Shown: positions 19,066 through 61,198 of the stretch, piece after piece
Position numbering within the stretch: the first letter of the stretch is position 1
Layout: each line of letters starts with the position of its first letter
Origin: Microlunatus phosphovorus NM-1
Lineage (GTDB): Bacteria; Actinomycetota; Actinomycetes; Propionibacteriales; Propionibacteriaceae
DNA length: 64,000 nucleotides
Assembly (NCBI RefSeq): GCF_000270245.1
Contig: NC_015635.1
Coordinates: forward strand, 1,922,001-1,986,000
Direction: 5' to 3'
Notes under the pieces: generated by a model
The model's database searches: none
What the model saw: only the letters and a program-made list of their open reading frames with translations
What the model was told of the DNA's origin: nothing
Translations under genes and position numbers: made by a program

Positions 19066-19164
19066 GCGGCACAGCCTATGTGACGCGTGCCGTCGTCCGG
19101 TGGGTCGCGCTCTGGCGCTGCCCATGCCCCATGCCAGTGCCACAGCCGATCCCCGCCGATACCC

Positions 19165-19234
19165 ACTTCGCACCAATTGCATCTTCTCCGCACCAGGCGT
19201 GCTTGGTGTGAGGTGGCATCAGTGGGTGCGAAGT
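19165..19234. repeat. 70-bp palindromic repeat, family B copy 1
   Basis: The element begins ACTTCGCACC and ends GGTGCGAAGT, exactly 70 bases, with a weaker inner inverted pair (CGCACCA / TTGGTGTG). Two more 70-base copies lie at 19692-19761 and 61129-61198. It occupies a spacer with no gene. Confidence 0.8.
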
Positions 19235-19263
19235 GGGGATTGGGGTGGTGTGACCTGCGGTTG

Positions 19264-19502
19264 CCGGTCCGGCTGGCGCCGCCGGGCCAAAGATCTACCC
19301 GGCTCTGACGGGATGCTGAGTCGTTTCGCGCCGCCGGGCCACCGACGACCACCAGTTGCGCGTGTGCGGCGTACGTTTTGCACCACCGGGCCACGAACGA
19401 CCGTCGACCAGGCGCGCACGGCGTACATCTCGCGCCGCCGGGCCACGAACGATCGTCGACCGGGCGTGTGCGGCGTACATCTCGCGCCGCCGGGCCACAG
19501 AT
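19264..19502. repeat. 52-bp tandem repeat array, 5 copies (family A)
   Basis: A core resembling CGTACATCTCGCGCCGCCGG followed by GCCAC recurs with the GCGCCG hexamer (once GCACCA) starting at 19276, 19328, 19380, 19432 and 19484, a period of exactly 52 bases. The sequence between cores is diverged, with CGACCGTCGAC-type strings in copies 3-5. The 825-base spacer 19066-19890 contains this array, two family B palindromes and a 32-base tandem, but no credible gene: the overlapping open frames are repeat shadows. Confidence 0.85.
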
Positions 19503-19691
19503 AGGCGCCGGAGCGGCGACGTCTGGCTCTGTCAGGTGGGATCGCTGATCGAGAAGGAGGCAAGGCACCTGTTCACGGCCGAAACAGGTGCCAGAACTCT
19601 TTCTCGCGAGCACCTGCGTGCGCCAAGCGGGCAGGCCGAAGGAGACTTGCCTGCACCCGCCTCTACCAACGACCGCCCAGATCCCGCATCG

Positions 19692-19761
19692 ACTTCGCAC
19701 CATTTACTGCGACTGCGCACCACGCCCACCTGATGCGCAGAAGACGTAGTTGGTGCGAAGT
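19692..19761. repeat. 70-bp palindromic repeat, family B copy 2
   Basis: Begins ACTTCGCACCA and ends TGGTGCGAAGT, exactly 70 bases, with inner CGCACCAC and a degenerate partner. It is followed by 32-base tandem copies of its right end. Confidence 0.8.
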
Positions 19762-19823
19762 CGGAATCGGGCGGGCACGAAATGGTGCGAAGTCGGAATC
19801 GGGTGGGCACGAAATGGTGCGGC
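19751..19823. repeat. 32-bp tandem of the palindrome right end
   Basis: TGGTGCG recurs at 19751, 19783 and 19815, with the intervening GAAGTCGGAATCGGG-type sequence nearly identical, giving a 32-base period. It looks like local amplification of the arm of the adjacent 70-bp element. Confidence 0.75.
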
Positions 19824-19890
19824 GTTGAGAGGTACGGATGCGGAGTTGCGGGCCAGGTCGGTGGCATTCGCCGGCGAGGTAATGAACCGG

Positions 19891-32268: not shown

Positions 32269-33877
32269 TCAGCGGTTGACGGCCGTGCCGGGCAGCACCA
32301 GCTGCCGCTCACGAGGATCGCGCGCCGCATCGGACAGACCCGACGCCTCGCCCTGGATCACCCGCTCGTGCAGCATCGGTACGGCGGCATGCGTGTCGAG
32401 CACGGCCCGTTCGGCGGCCATGATCGCGGTCCGTCGCTCGGGTCCGGGAGCGGTCTCGGAGGCCTGCTGGATCGCGGCATCCACGCCCTTGTCGCAGAGC
32501 TGGGAGATGTTGAACGATCCGTCGCAGGCGAAATCGCTGTACAGGTACGCGACCGGGTCACCCGAATCGAGGACGGTCGCCCGGGACAGGATGAAGGCGT
32601 CGAACTTCCCGGCCAGCGCGTCGGACTCGATCTGGGCGTACTCGCGTACGTCCTGCTTGACCTTGAAGCCGGCGGCCTCCAACTGCTGCTGCAACTGCAC
32701 TGCCACCTCCGGCAGCTCGGGCCGATCCGTGAAGGTGCCGATGGTGATCGATGCGCCGTCCGCGTTGCCCGGCGACGGGGCAGTGGTGGGCTGGCGGAGG
32801 TCGGCCGCCCAGGGCAGCGCCGGTCCGAGCAGGCCCTGAGCAATATCGGCCCGACCCTCATAGACGGTGTCGACGATGGTCTTCCGATTGATCGCGGCCG
32901 CGGCAATCTCCCGGTTCTTCGCGTCGGCGAACGGTCCCTTCTCGGTGTTCAGATAGAGGGTGTTGGTCCGTGGCATCGGCACCTCGTGTACCAGCGCCTG
33001 GTCCAGCAGCGGAGCCTGGGCGACCGGAATGGCCTCGACCAGATCGGCCGTACCGGTGCGCAGGGCAGCCGCCCGAGCCGCGCCATCGGGCACGAAGTCC
33101 GCGTCGATGCCCGGAGCCGCCGCCTTGGTGCCCCAGTAGCCGTCGTACCGGTCCAGGTGCGCACTGCTGGTGCCGTTCACCGAGGTGAGGAGGAACGGGC
33201 CGGTGCCGGCACCGATCGGGTCGACCACACCGTTCTTCCCGTACGCCTTCGCCGCCAGGATCGACAACTGCGGGCTGGACAGGCGCTGCGGCAGCAGCGG
33301 ATCGATGTCGGAGGTCGTGATCTTGACCGTGTCGTCGCCGACCGCCGTGATCTTCAGCTCGGTGCCGTCCAGGATGCGCGGCTTCGGGCTGGCCTTGGTG
33401 GCCGCGGTGAGGCTGGCGACGACCCGCTCGGCGGTCAGCGGCGTGCCGTCGTGGAAGGTCACGCCGGAGCGGATGATGAACTCCCAGGTATGCGGGTCGG
33501 TCTGCTTCCACTCGGTGGCCAGGGCGGGTTGGGCATCGCCGTTGGGATCCAGCACGATCAGGGTCTCGGCGGTCTGCCAGCGCGACAGCTTGAAGGCGTC
33601 GTCGCTCAGTGGCGTGAGGCCGGAGCGGGGCGGTTGCAGCATTGCCAGCCGGATCCGCTGGGAACCCTCGCCGGAGCCGGAGCTGTCGGACTGGGCCGGA
33701 GTGAAGCACCCGGTGAGGGCCAGGGCCGCCGTGGTGCAGACCGCAGCCAGTGCAGCGCGACGAAAGTGAGGTGCTCGTTGCCGGAGTGACAGCGCAGACG
33801 GGGATGGGGCAGACGGGGATGGGGCAGACGGGGATGGGGCAGACGGGGATGGGGCAGACGGGGATGGGGGTAGTCAC
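32269..33877 (-). CDS. peptide/metallophore-type ABC substrate-binding lipoprotein, start out of frame
   Basis: An SBP_bac_5 (cluster C) binding protein with LIVLDPNGDAQPALATEW, WEFIIRSGVTFHDGTPL, GTGPFLLTSVN and DSGDPVAYLY. The lipoprotein signal (RRAALAAVCTTAALALTGC) is in this frame near 33712. Upstream the frame has no ATG, GTG or TTG before a stop at 33874-33876. The only well-placed start, GTG at 33877 after GAAGGAAG, is one base out of frame. Removing one base from the C5 tract at 33866-33870 would join them through five Pro/Ser-rich 15-base repeats. Possibilities are phase variation, a mutation or a sequence error; ATG 33642 would give a protein without export signal. Confidence 0.75.
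33796..33870. repeat. five tandem 15-bp repeats at the start of the binding-protein gene
   Basis: AGACGGGGATGGGGC is repeated five times, the last copy ending in G5 (C5 on the coding strand). It lies between the putative GTG start and the lipoprotein signal. The unit length is a multiple of three, so copy-number change alone does not alter frame; the homopolymer can. Confidence 0.9.
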
Positions 33878-34772: not shown

Positions 34773-35644
34773 CGTGCCCACGCAGCCCGATCGGCTCGGA
34801 GGGTCTGATCGGTTGGCAGAGGCTGACTGGACGGCTGGGTCTGATCGGACGGCAGGGTCTGATCGGACGGCAGGGTCTGATCGGACGGCAGGGTCTGGGC
34901 GTATGCGGCGGCGGACAGTTCCTGGGTGTACGGATGCTTGGCCTGCCACAGCAACTCCGGCAACGGGCCCTCCTCGACGACCTGACCACTTGCCAGGACG
35001 ACCGCCCGCTCGCACAGGCTGGTGGCAACCGCCAGATCGTGGGTGATGAACACCAGTGCGGTGCCCGCCCCGACCTGTTGGCGGAGCACCTCGAGCACGG
35101 TGGCCTGGGCGACCACATCGAGGGCGGTTGTCGGCTCGTCGGCGACCAACACGCCGGGCCGGGAGGCCAGGGCGAGGGCGATGCAGACACGCTGTCGCTG
35201 GCCGCCGGACAACTGGCTCGGCACCCGGGACGCCATACCCGGCGTATCGAGGCCCACCGAGGCGAGCAGATCGTCGACTCCGCTGCGCACCGTCGCTGCC
35301 GGCACGCCGTGGCGGCGCAGCGTGGTGCCGATCTGCGAACCGATGGTGATCAGCGGGTGCAAGGCGGAGGCGGAGTCCTGGAACACCATCGCCACCCGGG
35401 CGTTGGCGGGACGCCGCGACGGCGGCCGTCCGGCCACATCGCATCCATCGACGAGGACCTGGCCGGACAGCGTCATCCCCGGCAGTGACTGACCGACGAC
35501 GGCGCGAGCGGTCAGGCTCTTCCCCGACCCTGAGGCCCCCAGCAGGCATAGCCGTTCACCGGGTTCGACCGAGAAGTCGACGCCGTCGACCAAGGTGCGG
35601 CCGTGGACCCGCATCGTCAAGTTGCGCACGACCAATCCGCTCAA
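34769..35644 (-). CDS. peptide/nickel-type ABC transporter ATP-binding protein (DppD-like)
   Basis: A 291-residue ATPase: Walker A GASGSGKS, Q-loop VFQDSASALHP, signature LSGGQRQRVCIALAL, Walker B VLVADEP and H-loop ITHDL. The C-terminus carries several repeats of QTLPSD encoded by 18-base tandem units, a disordered tail instead of the usual ligand-binding extension. TTG at 35644 is preferred because AGAAGGGGG lies six bases upstream; earlier codons run into the promoter. It is the first gene of the importer operon, and a Zur-like palindrome lies about 160 bases upstream. Confidence 0.87.
   Translation of the reverse strand: MSGLVVRNLTMRVHGRTLVDGVDFSVEPGERLCLLGASGSGKSLTARAVVGQSLPGMTLSGQVLVDGCDVAGRPPSRRPANARVAMVFQDSASALHPLITIGSQIGTTLRRHGVPAATVRSGVDDLLASVGLDTPGMASRVPSQLSGGQRQRVCIALALASRPGVLVADEPTTALDVVAQATVLEVLRQQVGAGTALVFITHDLAVATSLCERAVVLASGQVVEEGPLPELLWQAKHPYTQELSAAAYAQTLPSDQTLPSDQTLPSDQTQPSSQPLPTDQTLRADRAAWAR
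34839..34892. repeat. three perfect 18-bp tandem repeats in the ATPase 3' end
   Basis: GTCTGATCGGACGGCAGG occurs three times in a row, with diverged copies on both sides. It encodes the QTLPSD tail repeats. Confidence 0.9.
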
Positions 35645-35819: not shown

Positions 35820-35885
35820 TTCAGTTACGGTGTGGCAAGCCCAGTCCTGCGAATCACACTCATTGGAGACCGTAAGGAGATGCCC

Positions 35886-36644
35886 GTGTCGCCACGTCCG
35901 GTGCTGAGCAGTGGTGCGTCGAAGGTCGACGAGTACGCGGCCACGGCCGGCGCGTACGACCTCTTTGCGGCTCCCTATCGGTCGGTGCAGTTGGCTGCGC
36001 TTGACGAACTGATGCCGAGGCTGCGGCCGGAGGTGGGGCCGATCCTCGACATCGGGGCGGGATCTGGTGTGAACGCCGCTGTCATGCTCGATCGCCTCTC
36101 CGACGCGCGGGTAGTCGCCCTGGAACCGAGCCGGGCGATGCGCTCGCTGATCCTGTCGCGGATTGCTGCGCACTCGGAGTGGTATCGACGGGTCACAGTC
36201 CGACCGGAGGACTTCTTCTCCGCGTCACTGCCCGAACGTATCGGCGGCGCGATCCTGCTTGGTGTCATCGGGCATTTCGATCCCGGCGAGCGGGCCGCTG
36301 TGCTGGCCGAGCTCGCCGCCCGGCTGCCTGAGGGCGGTGCGGCGCTGCTCGATCTGCAGCAGCCCGAACGGCCGCGCCGGGTGGAGCCGTACGAGTTCAC
36401 GGCCGCGACGATCGGTGAGTTGAGCTACCGCGGGATCGCCGAGGCGTGGCCGGTCGACACTGAGCTGATGCGGTGGCGGATGAGCTACCTCTGCCTGGAG
36501 GGCGAGCGGGTGCTGACCGAGGACACGGCAGAGTACGAGTATCGGCATCCGGCTCCCGCCGTGGTGGCCGTCGAGGCTGAAGCGGTCGGTCTGAGCCTGG
36601 TGCCGCTGGCTGACGGAGTGCACTGGCTCGTAGAACGGGCGTAA
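35886..36644 (+). CDS. class I SAM-dependent methyltransferase
   Basis: A 252-residue methyltransferase. It begins SKVDEYAATAGAYDLFAAPY, with SAM motif I ILDIGAGSGVNAAV, acidic motif VVALEPSRAMR, GAILLGVIGHF and ALLDLQQPE. GTG 35886 is favoured because AAGGAG lies six bases upstream; an ATG at 35880 is too close to that site. The Zur-like palindrome about 65 bases upstream suggests expression under zinc limitation. With the divergent importer, the gene may modify or make a metal-binding small molecule, but this is inference; the acceptor is unknown. Confidence 0.75.
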   Translation: MSPRPVLSSGASKVDEYAATAGAYDLFAAPYRSVQLAALDELMPRLRPEVGPILDIGAGSGVNAAVMLDRLSDARVVALEPSRAMRSLILSRIAAHSEWYRRVTVRPEDFFSASLPERIGGAILLGVIGHFDPGERAAVLAELAARLPEGGAALLDLQQPERPRRVEPYEFTAATIGELSYRGIAEAWPVDTELMRWRMSYLCLEGERVLTEDTAEYEYRHPAPAVVAVEAEAVGLSLVPLADGVHWLVERA

Positions 36645-36645
36645 C

Positions 36646-37100
36646 GAGGAACGTTTGGCGCCGCGGGGCCACCGGTGATCGCGGCTCAGGCGGGTGGTGC
36701 GTACGTTCGGCGCCGCGGGGCCACAGACGCGCGCCGGCGTGCGTACGCGGGGTGCGTTTCGCGCCGCCGGGCCAAGGATGATCGCGGGCTAGGCGGAATG
36801 CCCGTACGTCTTGCGCCGCGGGGCCAACAACGACCGTAGGTCCCGCGGGTGGTGCGGACGTCTGGCGCCGTGGGGCCACAGGCGCGCGCCGGCGTGCGTA
36901 CCTGGGGTGCGTTTCGCGCCGCCGGGCCACAGGTGGTCGCGGGCTAGGCGGAATGCCCGTACGTCTTGTGCCGCGGGGCCAAGGACGACCGTAGGTCTCG
37001 CGGCTGGTGCGTACGTCTGGCGCCGCGGGGTCAACAACGACCGCAGGTCCTCTCGTCAGGCCGGTACGTCTGGCGCCGTCGGCCGCAAATAGCCGGAAGT
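36646..37100. repeat. 52-bp tandem repeat array, 9 copies (family A)
   Basis: The core (C/G)GTACGTCTGGCGCCGCGG followed by GGCCA recurs with its GCGCCG hexamer (GTGCCG once) at 36658, 36710, 36761, 36813, 36865, 36916, 36968, 37020 and 37073: spacings 52, 51, 52, 52, 51, 52, 52, 53. Sequence between cores falls into alternating types (for example GACGACCGTAGGTC and CACAGGCGCGCGCCGGCGTG). The array fills the 529-base gap after the methyltransferase; no gene is seen in it. Confidence 0.9.
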
Positions 37101-37116: not shown

Positions 37117-37150
37117 GAGGGGATGTCCGGCAGGCACCGGACATCCCCTC
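37117..37150. terminator. perfect 14-bp hairpin downstream of the His-rich gene
   Basis: GAGGGGATGTCCGG and CCGGACATCCCCTC flank a six-base loop, 24 bases beyond the His-rich stop. No T-run follows. Confidence 0.75.
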
Positions 37151-37173: not shown

Positions 37174-37470
37174 TCAGTGCTCGTCGTAGTGGTCGTCGTG
37201 AGCCGCGTGCTTGTGTCCGTCGTGGAGATAGTCGACGTGGTCGCCGTGCTGGACGGCTTCGTGGCCGCAGTCGTCGCCGTGAGCGTGATCGGCGGGAGTG
37301 TGCTCGGCGACAGACTCGTGCTCGTCGTAGTGGTCACCGTGCAGGGCATGCCGGTGGGTGCCGTGGATGTAGTCGACATGGTCGTCGTGCTGCACTGCTT
37401 CGTGCCCGCAGTCCGTGCCGTGTTCGTGCTCGGCGGTGGTGTGCTCCGCGTGGACGTCGGTGCTGGTCAT
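37174..37470 (-). CDS. histidine-rich metal-binding protein with internal duplication
   Basis: A 98-residue protein, over a quarter histidine, with many Asp/Glu. It consists of two copies of a roughly 38-residue unit: each runs from an EHEHG/DHAHG start through DCGHEAVQHxDHVDY and HxxHxHAxHxDHYDEH. Each has one cysteine. There is no signal peptide or membrane segment, so it should be a cytosolic buffer or store for zinc or nickel. ATG overlaps the stop of the ArsR gene (ATGA), so expression probably follows that sensor. Function is inferred from composition and neighbour. Confidence 0.8.
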   Translation of the reverse strand: MTSTDVHAEHTTAEHEHGTDCGHEAVQHDDHVDYIHGTHRHALHGDHYDEHESVAEHTPADHAHGDDCGHEAVQHGDHVDYLHDGHKHAAHDDHYDEH

Positions 37471-54620: not shown

Positions 54621-54660
54621 GAGTGCTGACCCTGACGGTCGAGTGCTGACCCTGACGGTC
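54621..54660. repeat. two perfect 20-bp tandem repeats
   Basis: GAGTGCTGACCCTGACGGTC occurs twice head to tail just after the CPBP gene. Confidence 0.9.
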
Positions 54661-54782
54661 GTATGTGGCCCGGGGGCGCGAGGCGTCCGGGGTTCTCGCG
54701 GGGTCGGCGGTCGTATGTGGCCCGGGGGCGCGAGGCGTACGGGCTCCTCGAAGGGCCGGCGGTCATCCTTGGCCCGGCGGTC
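54661..54782. repeat. 52-bp tandem repeat array, 3 copies, inverted (family A)
   Basis: GTATGTGGCCCGGGGGCGCG is found at 54661 and 54713 and a diverged copy near 54765; the GGCCC core starts at 54667, 54719 and 54771, exactly 52 bases apart. Its reverse complement matches the CGTACG-CTCGCGCC-CCGGGCCAC core of the arrays at 19264 and 36646. Confidence 0.8.
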
Positions 54783-55589
54783 CTAGGTGTCCTCGACCTC
54801 CTCGCCCAGGAAGCCGCGCAGCAGGCTCTCGGTGCCGGCCAGGTGTTCGGCCGCGACCAGTTCGGCGTCGGCTACGCGCCCGGCGATCACGGCCTCGACC
54901 AGGTGCCGATGCTGCTCGTGCCCGTGGTCCAGGTTCATCGACAGCAGGGGAATCAGATCCAGCAGCTGATTGAGCCGGATCCGGACGTCGGCGACGGCGC
55001 GTAGCAGACTCGGGATTCCCGCGCACTCCGCGATCAGCAGGTGTAACCGGGAGTCGAGCTGCCGGAACGAGTCATCATCGGATGCTGTGCACTCGGCCAA
55101 GGCCTGCTGGAGCGCGATGACCTGCGACTCGTCGAGTTCGGCGGCTGCGGCGGCACTCGCCGCGGCGACATCCACGATGGCACGGAAGCGCAGTACGTCG
55201 TCCAGTTCCTCCGCCGACGGCCAGCCGGTCCCGGCCGCGCCAGACTCGATCAGACCCGTGCCGGCAGCTCCCGATGCGGCAGGGTCCGCGTCGATCCCCA
55301 CCGCCAACGGAGTCGGCCGTGGCGGCTCGATCACGTAGGCCCCGCCGTACCGGCCCCGGCGTACCTCCAGATATCCGGCACGCTGAAGTCCCGCGATCGC
55401 CTCCCGCAAGGTCGTCCGTGACACGCCGAGCTGAACGGCGAGCGCACGTTCGCTCGGCAGTCGTTCGCCAACTCGCACCGAGCCCAGCCGAATGAGCTGG
55501 AGCAGTCGAGCCGTGGTCTCCTCGAAGGCGTTGCCCGAGCGGATCGGCCGCATCAGGGAGGCCATCTTCGGAGGCAGCGGATCGGACAT
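54783..55589 (-). CDS. GntR/FadR-family transcriptional regulator
   Basis: A 268-residue regulator. The winged helix-turn-helix is VGERLPSERALAVQLGVSRT followed by TLREAIAGLQRAGYLEVRRGR, and the C-terminal FCD domain has metal-binding-type residues (DSRLHLLIAECAG, HEQHRHLVEAVIAG). A low-complexity linker with a duplicated GAAGTG motif joins them. It is divergent from the ethanolamine-type permease and probably represses that operon, releasing on the amine or a glutamylated intermediate. Confidence 0.86.
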   Translation of the reverse strand: MSDPLPPKMASLMRPIRSGNAFEETTARLLQLIRLGSVRVGERLPSERALAVQLGVSRTTLREAIAGLQRAGYLEVRRGRYGGAYVIEPPRPTPLAVGIDADPAASGAAGTGLIESGAAGTGWPSAEELDDVLRFRAIVDVAAASAAAAAELDESQVIALQQALAECTASDDDSFRQLDSRLHLLIAECAGIPSLLRAVADVRIRLNQLLDLIPLLSMNLDHGHEQHRHLVEAVIAGRVADAELVAAEHLAGTESLLRGFLGEEVEDT

Positions 55590-61128: not shown

Positions 61129-61198
61129 ACTTCGCACCAACTGTGTCATCCGCGCACCACGCACACGTGGTGCGCGGTGACAGGAGTTGGTGCGAAGT
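61129..61198. repeat. 70-bp palindromic repeat, family B copy 3
   Basis: It begins ACTTCGCACCAACT and ends AGTTGGTGCGAAGT, exactly 70 bases, with an inner perfect inverted pair (CGCGCACCACG / CGTGGTGCGCG). It is the best-preserved copy and could fold into a nearly continuous hairpin between convergent genes. Confidence 0.88.

Follow-up and report, generated by a model that had tools for sequence, protein, structure and literature searches.

In this work, we are presenting a genome-wide analysis of the repeat array at 36646-37100 of the window, the whole 64,000-nucleotide stretch of DNA that was analysed. The array is one locus of a dispersed family of intergenic direct repeats, whose unit consists of a 33-bp core (positions -9 to +23, consensus GTACGTCTCGCGCCNNCGGGCCACAGACGACCG) and a 19-bp weakly conserved linker, and whose pitch of 52 bp is real. 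As an explanation we propose, and hold to be an even call, a lineage-specific family of dispersed arrays in which the core is a DNA site recognised by a probably dimeric protein, and in which unequal recombination alters the number of copies. Many units, a conserved core set against a free linker, a near-fixed pitch and sharp core-to-core ends are combined here in one repeat family, and two questions can therefore be put to the test in a single organism: which factor recognises repeats of this type, and whether selection or mere inheritance accounts for their spacing.

The reported array, the family and its core

The preliminary description of the locus had listed nine cores centred on GCGCCG, spaced 52, 51, 52, 52, 51, 52, 52 and 53 bp apart. 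These spacings are exact, with the cores starting at 36658, 36710, 36761, 36813, 36865, 36916, 36968, 37020 and 37073. The first eight cores belong to full units, which score 20.4 to 51.5 bits on the family model, while the ninth is a half core only; GCGCCG itself is present in eight of nine copies, the seventh being GTGCCG, and the conserved part around it actually extends over about 33 bp. Using Tandem Repeats Finder, a period of 52 was detected at 36651-37078 (8.2 copies, 64% matches), together with a higher-order period of 155 bp at 36690-37030 (2.2 copies, 90%). With at most one mismatch, the sequence GCGCCGNNGGGCCA was matched at 21 places in the window compared with 2.92 +/- 1.67 in shuffled sequence, and none of 100 shuffles reached 21. 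The features of the locus, followed by the two further family arrays of the window, are listed below.

35832-36644, + strand: gene of a methyltransferase-domain protein, upstream; its stop lies 5 bp before the reported array
36649-37043, + strand: reported array, eight full 33-bp cores and seven linkers at 52/51-bp pitch (from the sequence and the family model)
36651-36960, + strand: two tandem 155-bp higher-order repeats of three units each, 85% identical
37064-37078, + strand: ninth, truncated core, left half only, GTACGTCTGGCGCCG (from the sequence; -7.4 bits as a whole unit)
37117-37150, no strand assigned: perfect inverted repeat (14-bp arms, 6-nt spacer), terminator-like, between the reported array and the convergent gene
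37174-37470, - strand: convergent gene of a His-rich protein, downstream, with a duplicated 141-bp unit; no Pfam match
19267-19507, + strand: second family array, five units with a pitch of exactly 52 bp; part of a larger dispersed composite element
54656-54792, - strand: third family array, three units with a 52-bp pitch; the first core and the 3' end of a GntR-type regulator gene share 10 bp

The 141-bp unit is present in about 1.9 copies (window 37177-37450) in the His-rich protein gene, which adjoins an ArsR-type regulator gene. The methyltransferase on the other side of the array has no match at 1e-20 in 19 congeners. Two unrelated short tandem repeats, a perfect one of 15 bp x 5.1 at window 33794-33869 and an 85% one of 18 bp x 5.4 at window 34800-34897, were noticed near or in what by eye appears to be an ABC transporter gene cluster.

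The DNA examined for further members of the family amounted to 1.893 Mb including the window, which is a third of the 5,683,123-bp genome, a single contig in which the window spans bases 1922001-1986000. Sixty evenly spaced 20-kb stretches (1.2 Mb) served as an unbiased sample, the rest being stretches around pattern matches or adjoining the window. Units were identified at a cut-off of 18 bits by a position weight matrix that started from the core and was refined iteratively on this same DNA. In this way 348 units of at least 18 bits were obtained, compared with none in the reversed sequence, and these form 86 arrays of 1 to 11 units each (one palindromic site was counted once per strand). 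The unbiased 1.2 Mb holds 27 arrays with 111 units, which by extrapolation to the genome gives about 128 arrays and 526 units (rounded here to about 130 and 525), and a sequence model built from 54 units yielded at least 256 matches at E <= 0.01 in the whole genome. The G+C content of the sampled stretches is 67.2%.

That the core is better conserved than the DNA between the cores was borne out across the examined DNA. Between units of different arrays, core identity is 72% and linker identity 46% (25,047 pairs), the values for adjacent units being 79% and 60%, respectively (132 pairs); the unit model was core-seeded and trained on the same data, which can sharpen this contrast. Core and linker are copied together, yet they are conserved unequally, which points to selection or recognition at the core. 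The TGGC/GCCA dyad symmetry described previously stood in part: a dyad is present but imperfect (CGTYT...ARACG with GCC...GGC, 10 of 16 pairs at one centre; the next best has 7 of 14), and its centre lies 1 bp from the one proposed. Across 340 distinct units, complementary bases at the paired positions are not in excess of expectation (for instance, -3/16: 0.62 observed, 0.67 expected). RNAalifold, applied to 54 units, kept three inner pairs, the covariation term being -0.02; compensatory change was found in one of the 54 sequences, at one pair. Since covariation does not exceed expectation, the symmetry points to DNA rather than RNA. Judging from these sequence comparisons, we infer that the core would be conserved as DNA and not as an RNA hairpin, most likely through recognition by a sequence-specific, probably dimeric protein, which might be a host nucleoid or topology factor or else the enzyme that spreads the repeats.

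Placement, pitch and growth of the arrays

Gene calls made in this analysis gave 1,885 genes (89% coding), and 82 of the 86 arrays lie between called genes: 25 in convergent gaps, 22 codirectional in sense, 21 codirectional in antisense and 14 in divergent gaps. The other four comprise two arrays inside low-scoring open reading frames (15.8 and 18.6 bits) and two without a flanking gene; some short open reading frame calls also overlap arrays. A coding role was considered and rejected, as a pitch of 52 bp is not divisible by three and the arrays are placed between genes. Convergent gaps are over-represented (25/82, 17% expected, p = 0.002) and divergent gaps under-represented (14/82, p = 0.02; 8/68 for non-composite arrays, p = 0.0016), the placement being less clear in the unbiased sample alone, with 5 convergent and 5 divergent among 26 arrays. 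Of the 43 arrays in codirectional gaps, 31 are closer to the 3' end of the upstream gene (median distance 48 v 125 bp). There is no strand preference relative to genes in these gaps, as seen from the 22 sense and 21 antisense arrays, and array strands by half-chromosome are 23/19 and 22/22 when the origin is assumed at base 1. The largest similarity group among the proteins of neighbouring genes comprises 5 of 289.

The spacing noticed at the single locus turned out to be preferred throughout the examined DNA. For neighbouring cores on the same strand and within 400 bp of each other, 226 of 262 spacings are exactly 52 bp, 16 are 51 and 8 are 53 bp, so that 250 fall within +/-1 of 52 bp; the other 12 are found at 41, 50, 54, 55, 57, 105, 154 and 157 bp. 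Calculated from net spacing, the arrays carry 0.0085 length variants per substitution per period (32 in 258 periods, with 14.5 mismatches each). Three flanking stretches of the composite element, a small and uneven control set, gave 2 per 121, 1 per 21 and 15 per 71, or 18 per 213 when pooled (0.085). Length changes per substitution in the arrays are thus about ten-fold below the pooled flanks and two-fold below the left stretch alone, the strictest comparison; the composite arrays taken alone, at 0.0125, are still closer to this left stretch. Net spacing replaced an earlier control based on gap counting, in which the arrays showed 0.13-0.25 indels per substitution, not below two of the three flanks (0.06, 0.09 and 0.29), and in which gaps in the diverged linkers looked like alignment artefacts.

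The preliminary description had attributed the period to helical phasing, and on this point the evidence is divided. The rarity of length changes relative to the pooled flanks speaks for it, but cores beside an off-pitch spacing are not weaker than the others (38.1 bits for 55 internal units vs 38.8 for 132 on-pitch units, p = 0.75), which counts against a strict phase requirement. Selection on the pitch is plausible, and helical phase as its cause is compatible with these data but unproven. In the mechanism that we propose, the linker would supply length more than sequence, placing successive dyads about five helical turns apart.

The same description had set the array apart from a decayed ordinary tandem duplication, and this distinction is not supported: ordinary tandem duplication, acting on blocks made up of complete units, enlarged the arrays. 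Patterns of the ABAB, ABCABC and longer block types are seen in several of them, and growth of this kind implies that the period is at least partly inherited. Unequal recombination, or slippage from one core to another, may add or remove copies in steps of one or more full periods, which would leave such patterns behind.

A change in copy number can be followed in the dispersed composite element, which occupies 19160-19830 in the window and consists of ACTTCGCACCA repeats on both sides, a 52-bp array and then a long hairpin sequence (CGAGAAGGAGGCAAGGCACCTGTTCACGGCCGAA...). The hairpin sequence has 15 copies in the whole genome at up to 3 mismatches, and 11 of the 12 copies in the examined DNA follow an array, at a distance of 66-118 bp from its last core. 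In the 11 arrays concerned, 7, 5, 3, 5, 8, 5, 7, 6, 7, 5 and 8 units were counted, so the copy number changes, from 3 to 8 units, while the flanks stay alike. A hairpin sequence with 3 mismatches and no array within 400 bp was found at L127:1078-1111, and it may represent a terminator-like ancestor. The window contains nine ACTTCGCACCA motifs at up to one mismatch, compared with 0.87 expected; a further inverted pair of exact motifs lies at window 61129-61198.

In 61 non-composite arrays of at least two units, the match to the consensus just outside the first and last core is 0.36-0.38, compared with 0.50-0.58 in internal linkers and 0.30 at random. When the outer 19 bp of 40 arrays with at least three units were compared with the arrays' own linkers and with the flanks of other arrays, the values were 0.46 v 0.41 on the right side (p = 0.31) and 0.39 v 0.38 on the left (p = 0.85); for internal linkers, the best partner reaches 0.71. 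The arrays are therefore mostly composed of n cores and n-1 linkers, running from core to core. Exceptions exist: a value of 0.7 is reached by the right flanks of 5 and the left flanks of 2 of the 40 arrays, and the reported array ends in a half core. First cores also score lower than internal ones, at 32.9 bits (75 units) compared with 38.6 bits (187 units). Duplication of a single core with its flank would leave an outer linker, and for this reason it is probable either that the founding piece of an array carried two or more cores, or that linker-core pieces were acquired from other arrays through recombination. The linkers of non-composite arrays (168 in all) include 16 cross-locus pairs that are identical at 17 or more of 19 positions vs 0.5 expected, some of them coming from duplicated neighbourhoods. 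An exact linker is common to the arrays at 967932 and 5265730, for which no common flank was detected. Target-site duplication was not seen around the arrays, the best offsets falling inside or at the edge of the core. It is recombination between cores that, on our proposal, would make the arrays and spread them.

Distribution in relatives and rival explanations

Core profile and pattern searches failed to find the family in the relatives searched. An exact 19-base core pattern, matched 84 times in this genome, was not found in any of 56 relatives (19 congeners among them) and gave no control matches; as it catches about one sixth of the estimated units, scarce or diverged copies could be missed. 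With the family model, the 19 congeners gave 0-4 weak matches each, 16 of them having 1-4 matches at E <= 0.1 (best E 7.5e-4), which exceeds the nominal expectation. In five congener genomes inspected place by place, the matches number 14; they are partial and scattered, score 15-22 bits and form no array, and on these grounds the congener matches are read as chance. In 400 kb from each of two congeners no position exceeds 8 bits, compared with 118 positions in 1.2 Mb here. The 19-base pattern found four lone matches in the genome contig collection, with no second core near (for one of them, 28 bp from a stretch end, on the upstream side only). The plasmid and phage collections contained no match to the reported array, and 58 viral stretches had one match each of a 15-base pattern. 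The family is best read from these searches as lineage-specific, and any host function would then not be shared with the congeners. One congener carries a single array of 52-bp period with unrelated sequence (L268:8649-8811, 3.2 copies, 94%), of which no further copy occurs in the 400 kb examined.

A selfish or passive satellite, spread by transposition or gene conversion, enlarged by unequal crossing-over and free of any host function, is a tentative but serious possibility. Its 52 bp would be nothing else than the length of the founding unit, and the intergenic placement would be what purifying selection leaves. The block duplications fit such an origin, as do the varying arrays beside alike composite flanks, the failure to find the family in the relatives searched, the linkers shared between loci and the full-strength cores of off-pitch units. 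A satellite alone does not account for a conserved core next to an unconserved linker within one and the same unit, although it would if the core served as the site of spreading; in addition, no target-site duplication was seen, and the genome has no transposase of the Y1 class, the only class searched. With the spreading enzyme itself as the recogniser, the selfish reading becomes almost as likely as protein recognition combined with core recombination. We regard as rather unlikely the more ambitious proposal that the approximately 130 arrays form a lattice, in which a dimeric protein would sit on a 33-bp dyad every five helical turns and mark or insulate gene ends, the whole being a bacterial satellite in which higher-order repeats arise and core recombination homogenises the loci.

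Three other explanations are considerably less probable. Some arrays begin a few bases after a stop codon, as the reported one does, and the consensus CGTCT can pair with AGACG, as would suit an RNA element with each unit forming a hairpin in 3' untranslated RNA and stabilising or terminating transcripts; this is nevertheless improbable, given pairing and covariation at the levels stated above, the balance of sense and antisense arrays and the lack of an Rfam match in the window at the gathering threshold. We see very little room for a REP/BIME family mobilised by a RAYT transposase. The intergenic location, the dyad-symmetric core of 32-33 bp, its frequent position near gene 3' ends and the CGTC near one core end, as in the CGTC-tagged REPs described in PMC3733652, are in its favour. 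However, a search for Y1 (IS200/REP-type, PF01797) transposase gave no match in the genome, its control being positive in 5 of 14 genomes, and the units are arranged head-to-tail: of 265 pairs of neighbours closer than 400 bp, 3 have opposite orientations, one of these being the palindromic site matched on both strands. Mobilisation by RAYT is largely refuted, and any other mobilising enzyme would come under the selfish reading. As to the palindrome of REP type (20-40 bp, able to pair), the dyad has the 10 of 16 pairs and the single compensatory change among 54 sequences given above, with covariation not beyond expectation. Least credible of all is a CRISPR-like or cassette-like array, in which 33-bp repeats would alternate with acquired 19-bp inserts of fixed length. 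It agrees with the core-to-core ends, the constant insert length and the presence in the genome of one Cas1 gene, Cas1 being the cas gene searched for, but adjacent cores are only about 79% identical, the linkers have a common consensus and were duplicated along with the cores, there are 86 loci in a third of the genome, and none of these arrays lies within 17 kb of the Cas1 gene at C1:1243769, around which 1242001-1276000 fall outside the examined DNA. The Cas1 domain (C1:1243769-1244614, L276) belongs to a 695-residue open frame, which exceeds the 283 positions of the Cas1 model.

Comparison with known repeats

No report of this repeat was found in the literature searched, and it may be noted in the genome's own paper. 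The earlier statement that no named element has this form was too strong, as the staphylococcal STAR elements and the mycobacterial MIRUs are similar in layout, and by this analogy the family is best read as STAR/MIRU-like in layout.

CRISPR arrays have repeats at both ends, a constant pitch, near-identical repeats and unique spacers. The present arrays resemble them in having a core at both ends and a constant pitch, and differ in their degenerate repeats, consensus linkers and many dispersed loci, none of which was found within 17 kb of the Cas1 gene.

The orientation of MIRUs follows the transcription of neighbouring genes, whereas here there is no strand preference (22 sense, 21 antisense); the approximately 130 loci, estimated by extrapolation, and the strong contrast between core and linker are further differences. 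The likeness, which is one of layout, consists in tandem repeats scattered over an actinobacterial chromosome, here with a 52-bp pitch and 86 arrays found. In Mycobacterium tuberculosis, MIRUs are described as minisatellite-like tandem repeats of 46-101 bp present at 41 loci (PMC3914561).

REP/BIME sequences, including the CGTC-tagged REPs, are high-copy palindromic extragenic repeats located mostly downstream of coding regions, and the CGTC REPs are reported as having no dedicated transposase (PMC3733652). The units analysed here are head-to-tail instead of mostly opposite, no Y1 transposase accompanies them in the genome, and their core is partly palindromic with no support from covariation.

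The STAR elements of Staphylococcus aureus are built on a 14-bp motif, T(G/A/T)TGTTG(G/T)GGCCC(C/A), with at least 40 bp between copies, and such families have been described without a known function or spreading mechanism (PMC3532100). By inspection, this 14-bp motif is not contained in the 33-bp core consensus. Both families have a GC-rich conserved short motif, recurring linkers and tandem repeats of about 50 nt in intergenic positions at several loci, and in both the copy number is variable, here between loci of one genome, and linkers differ between loci (PMC3532100). What distinguishes the present family from STAR is its 33-bp dyad core, its 19-bp linker and its almost exact 52-bp pitch, in a high-GC actinobacterium.
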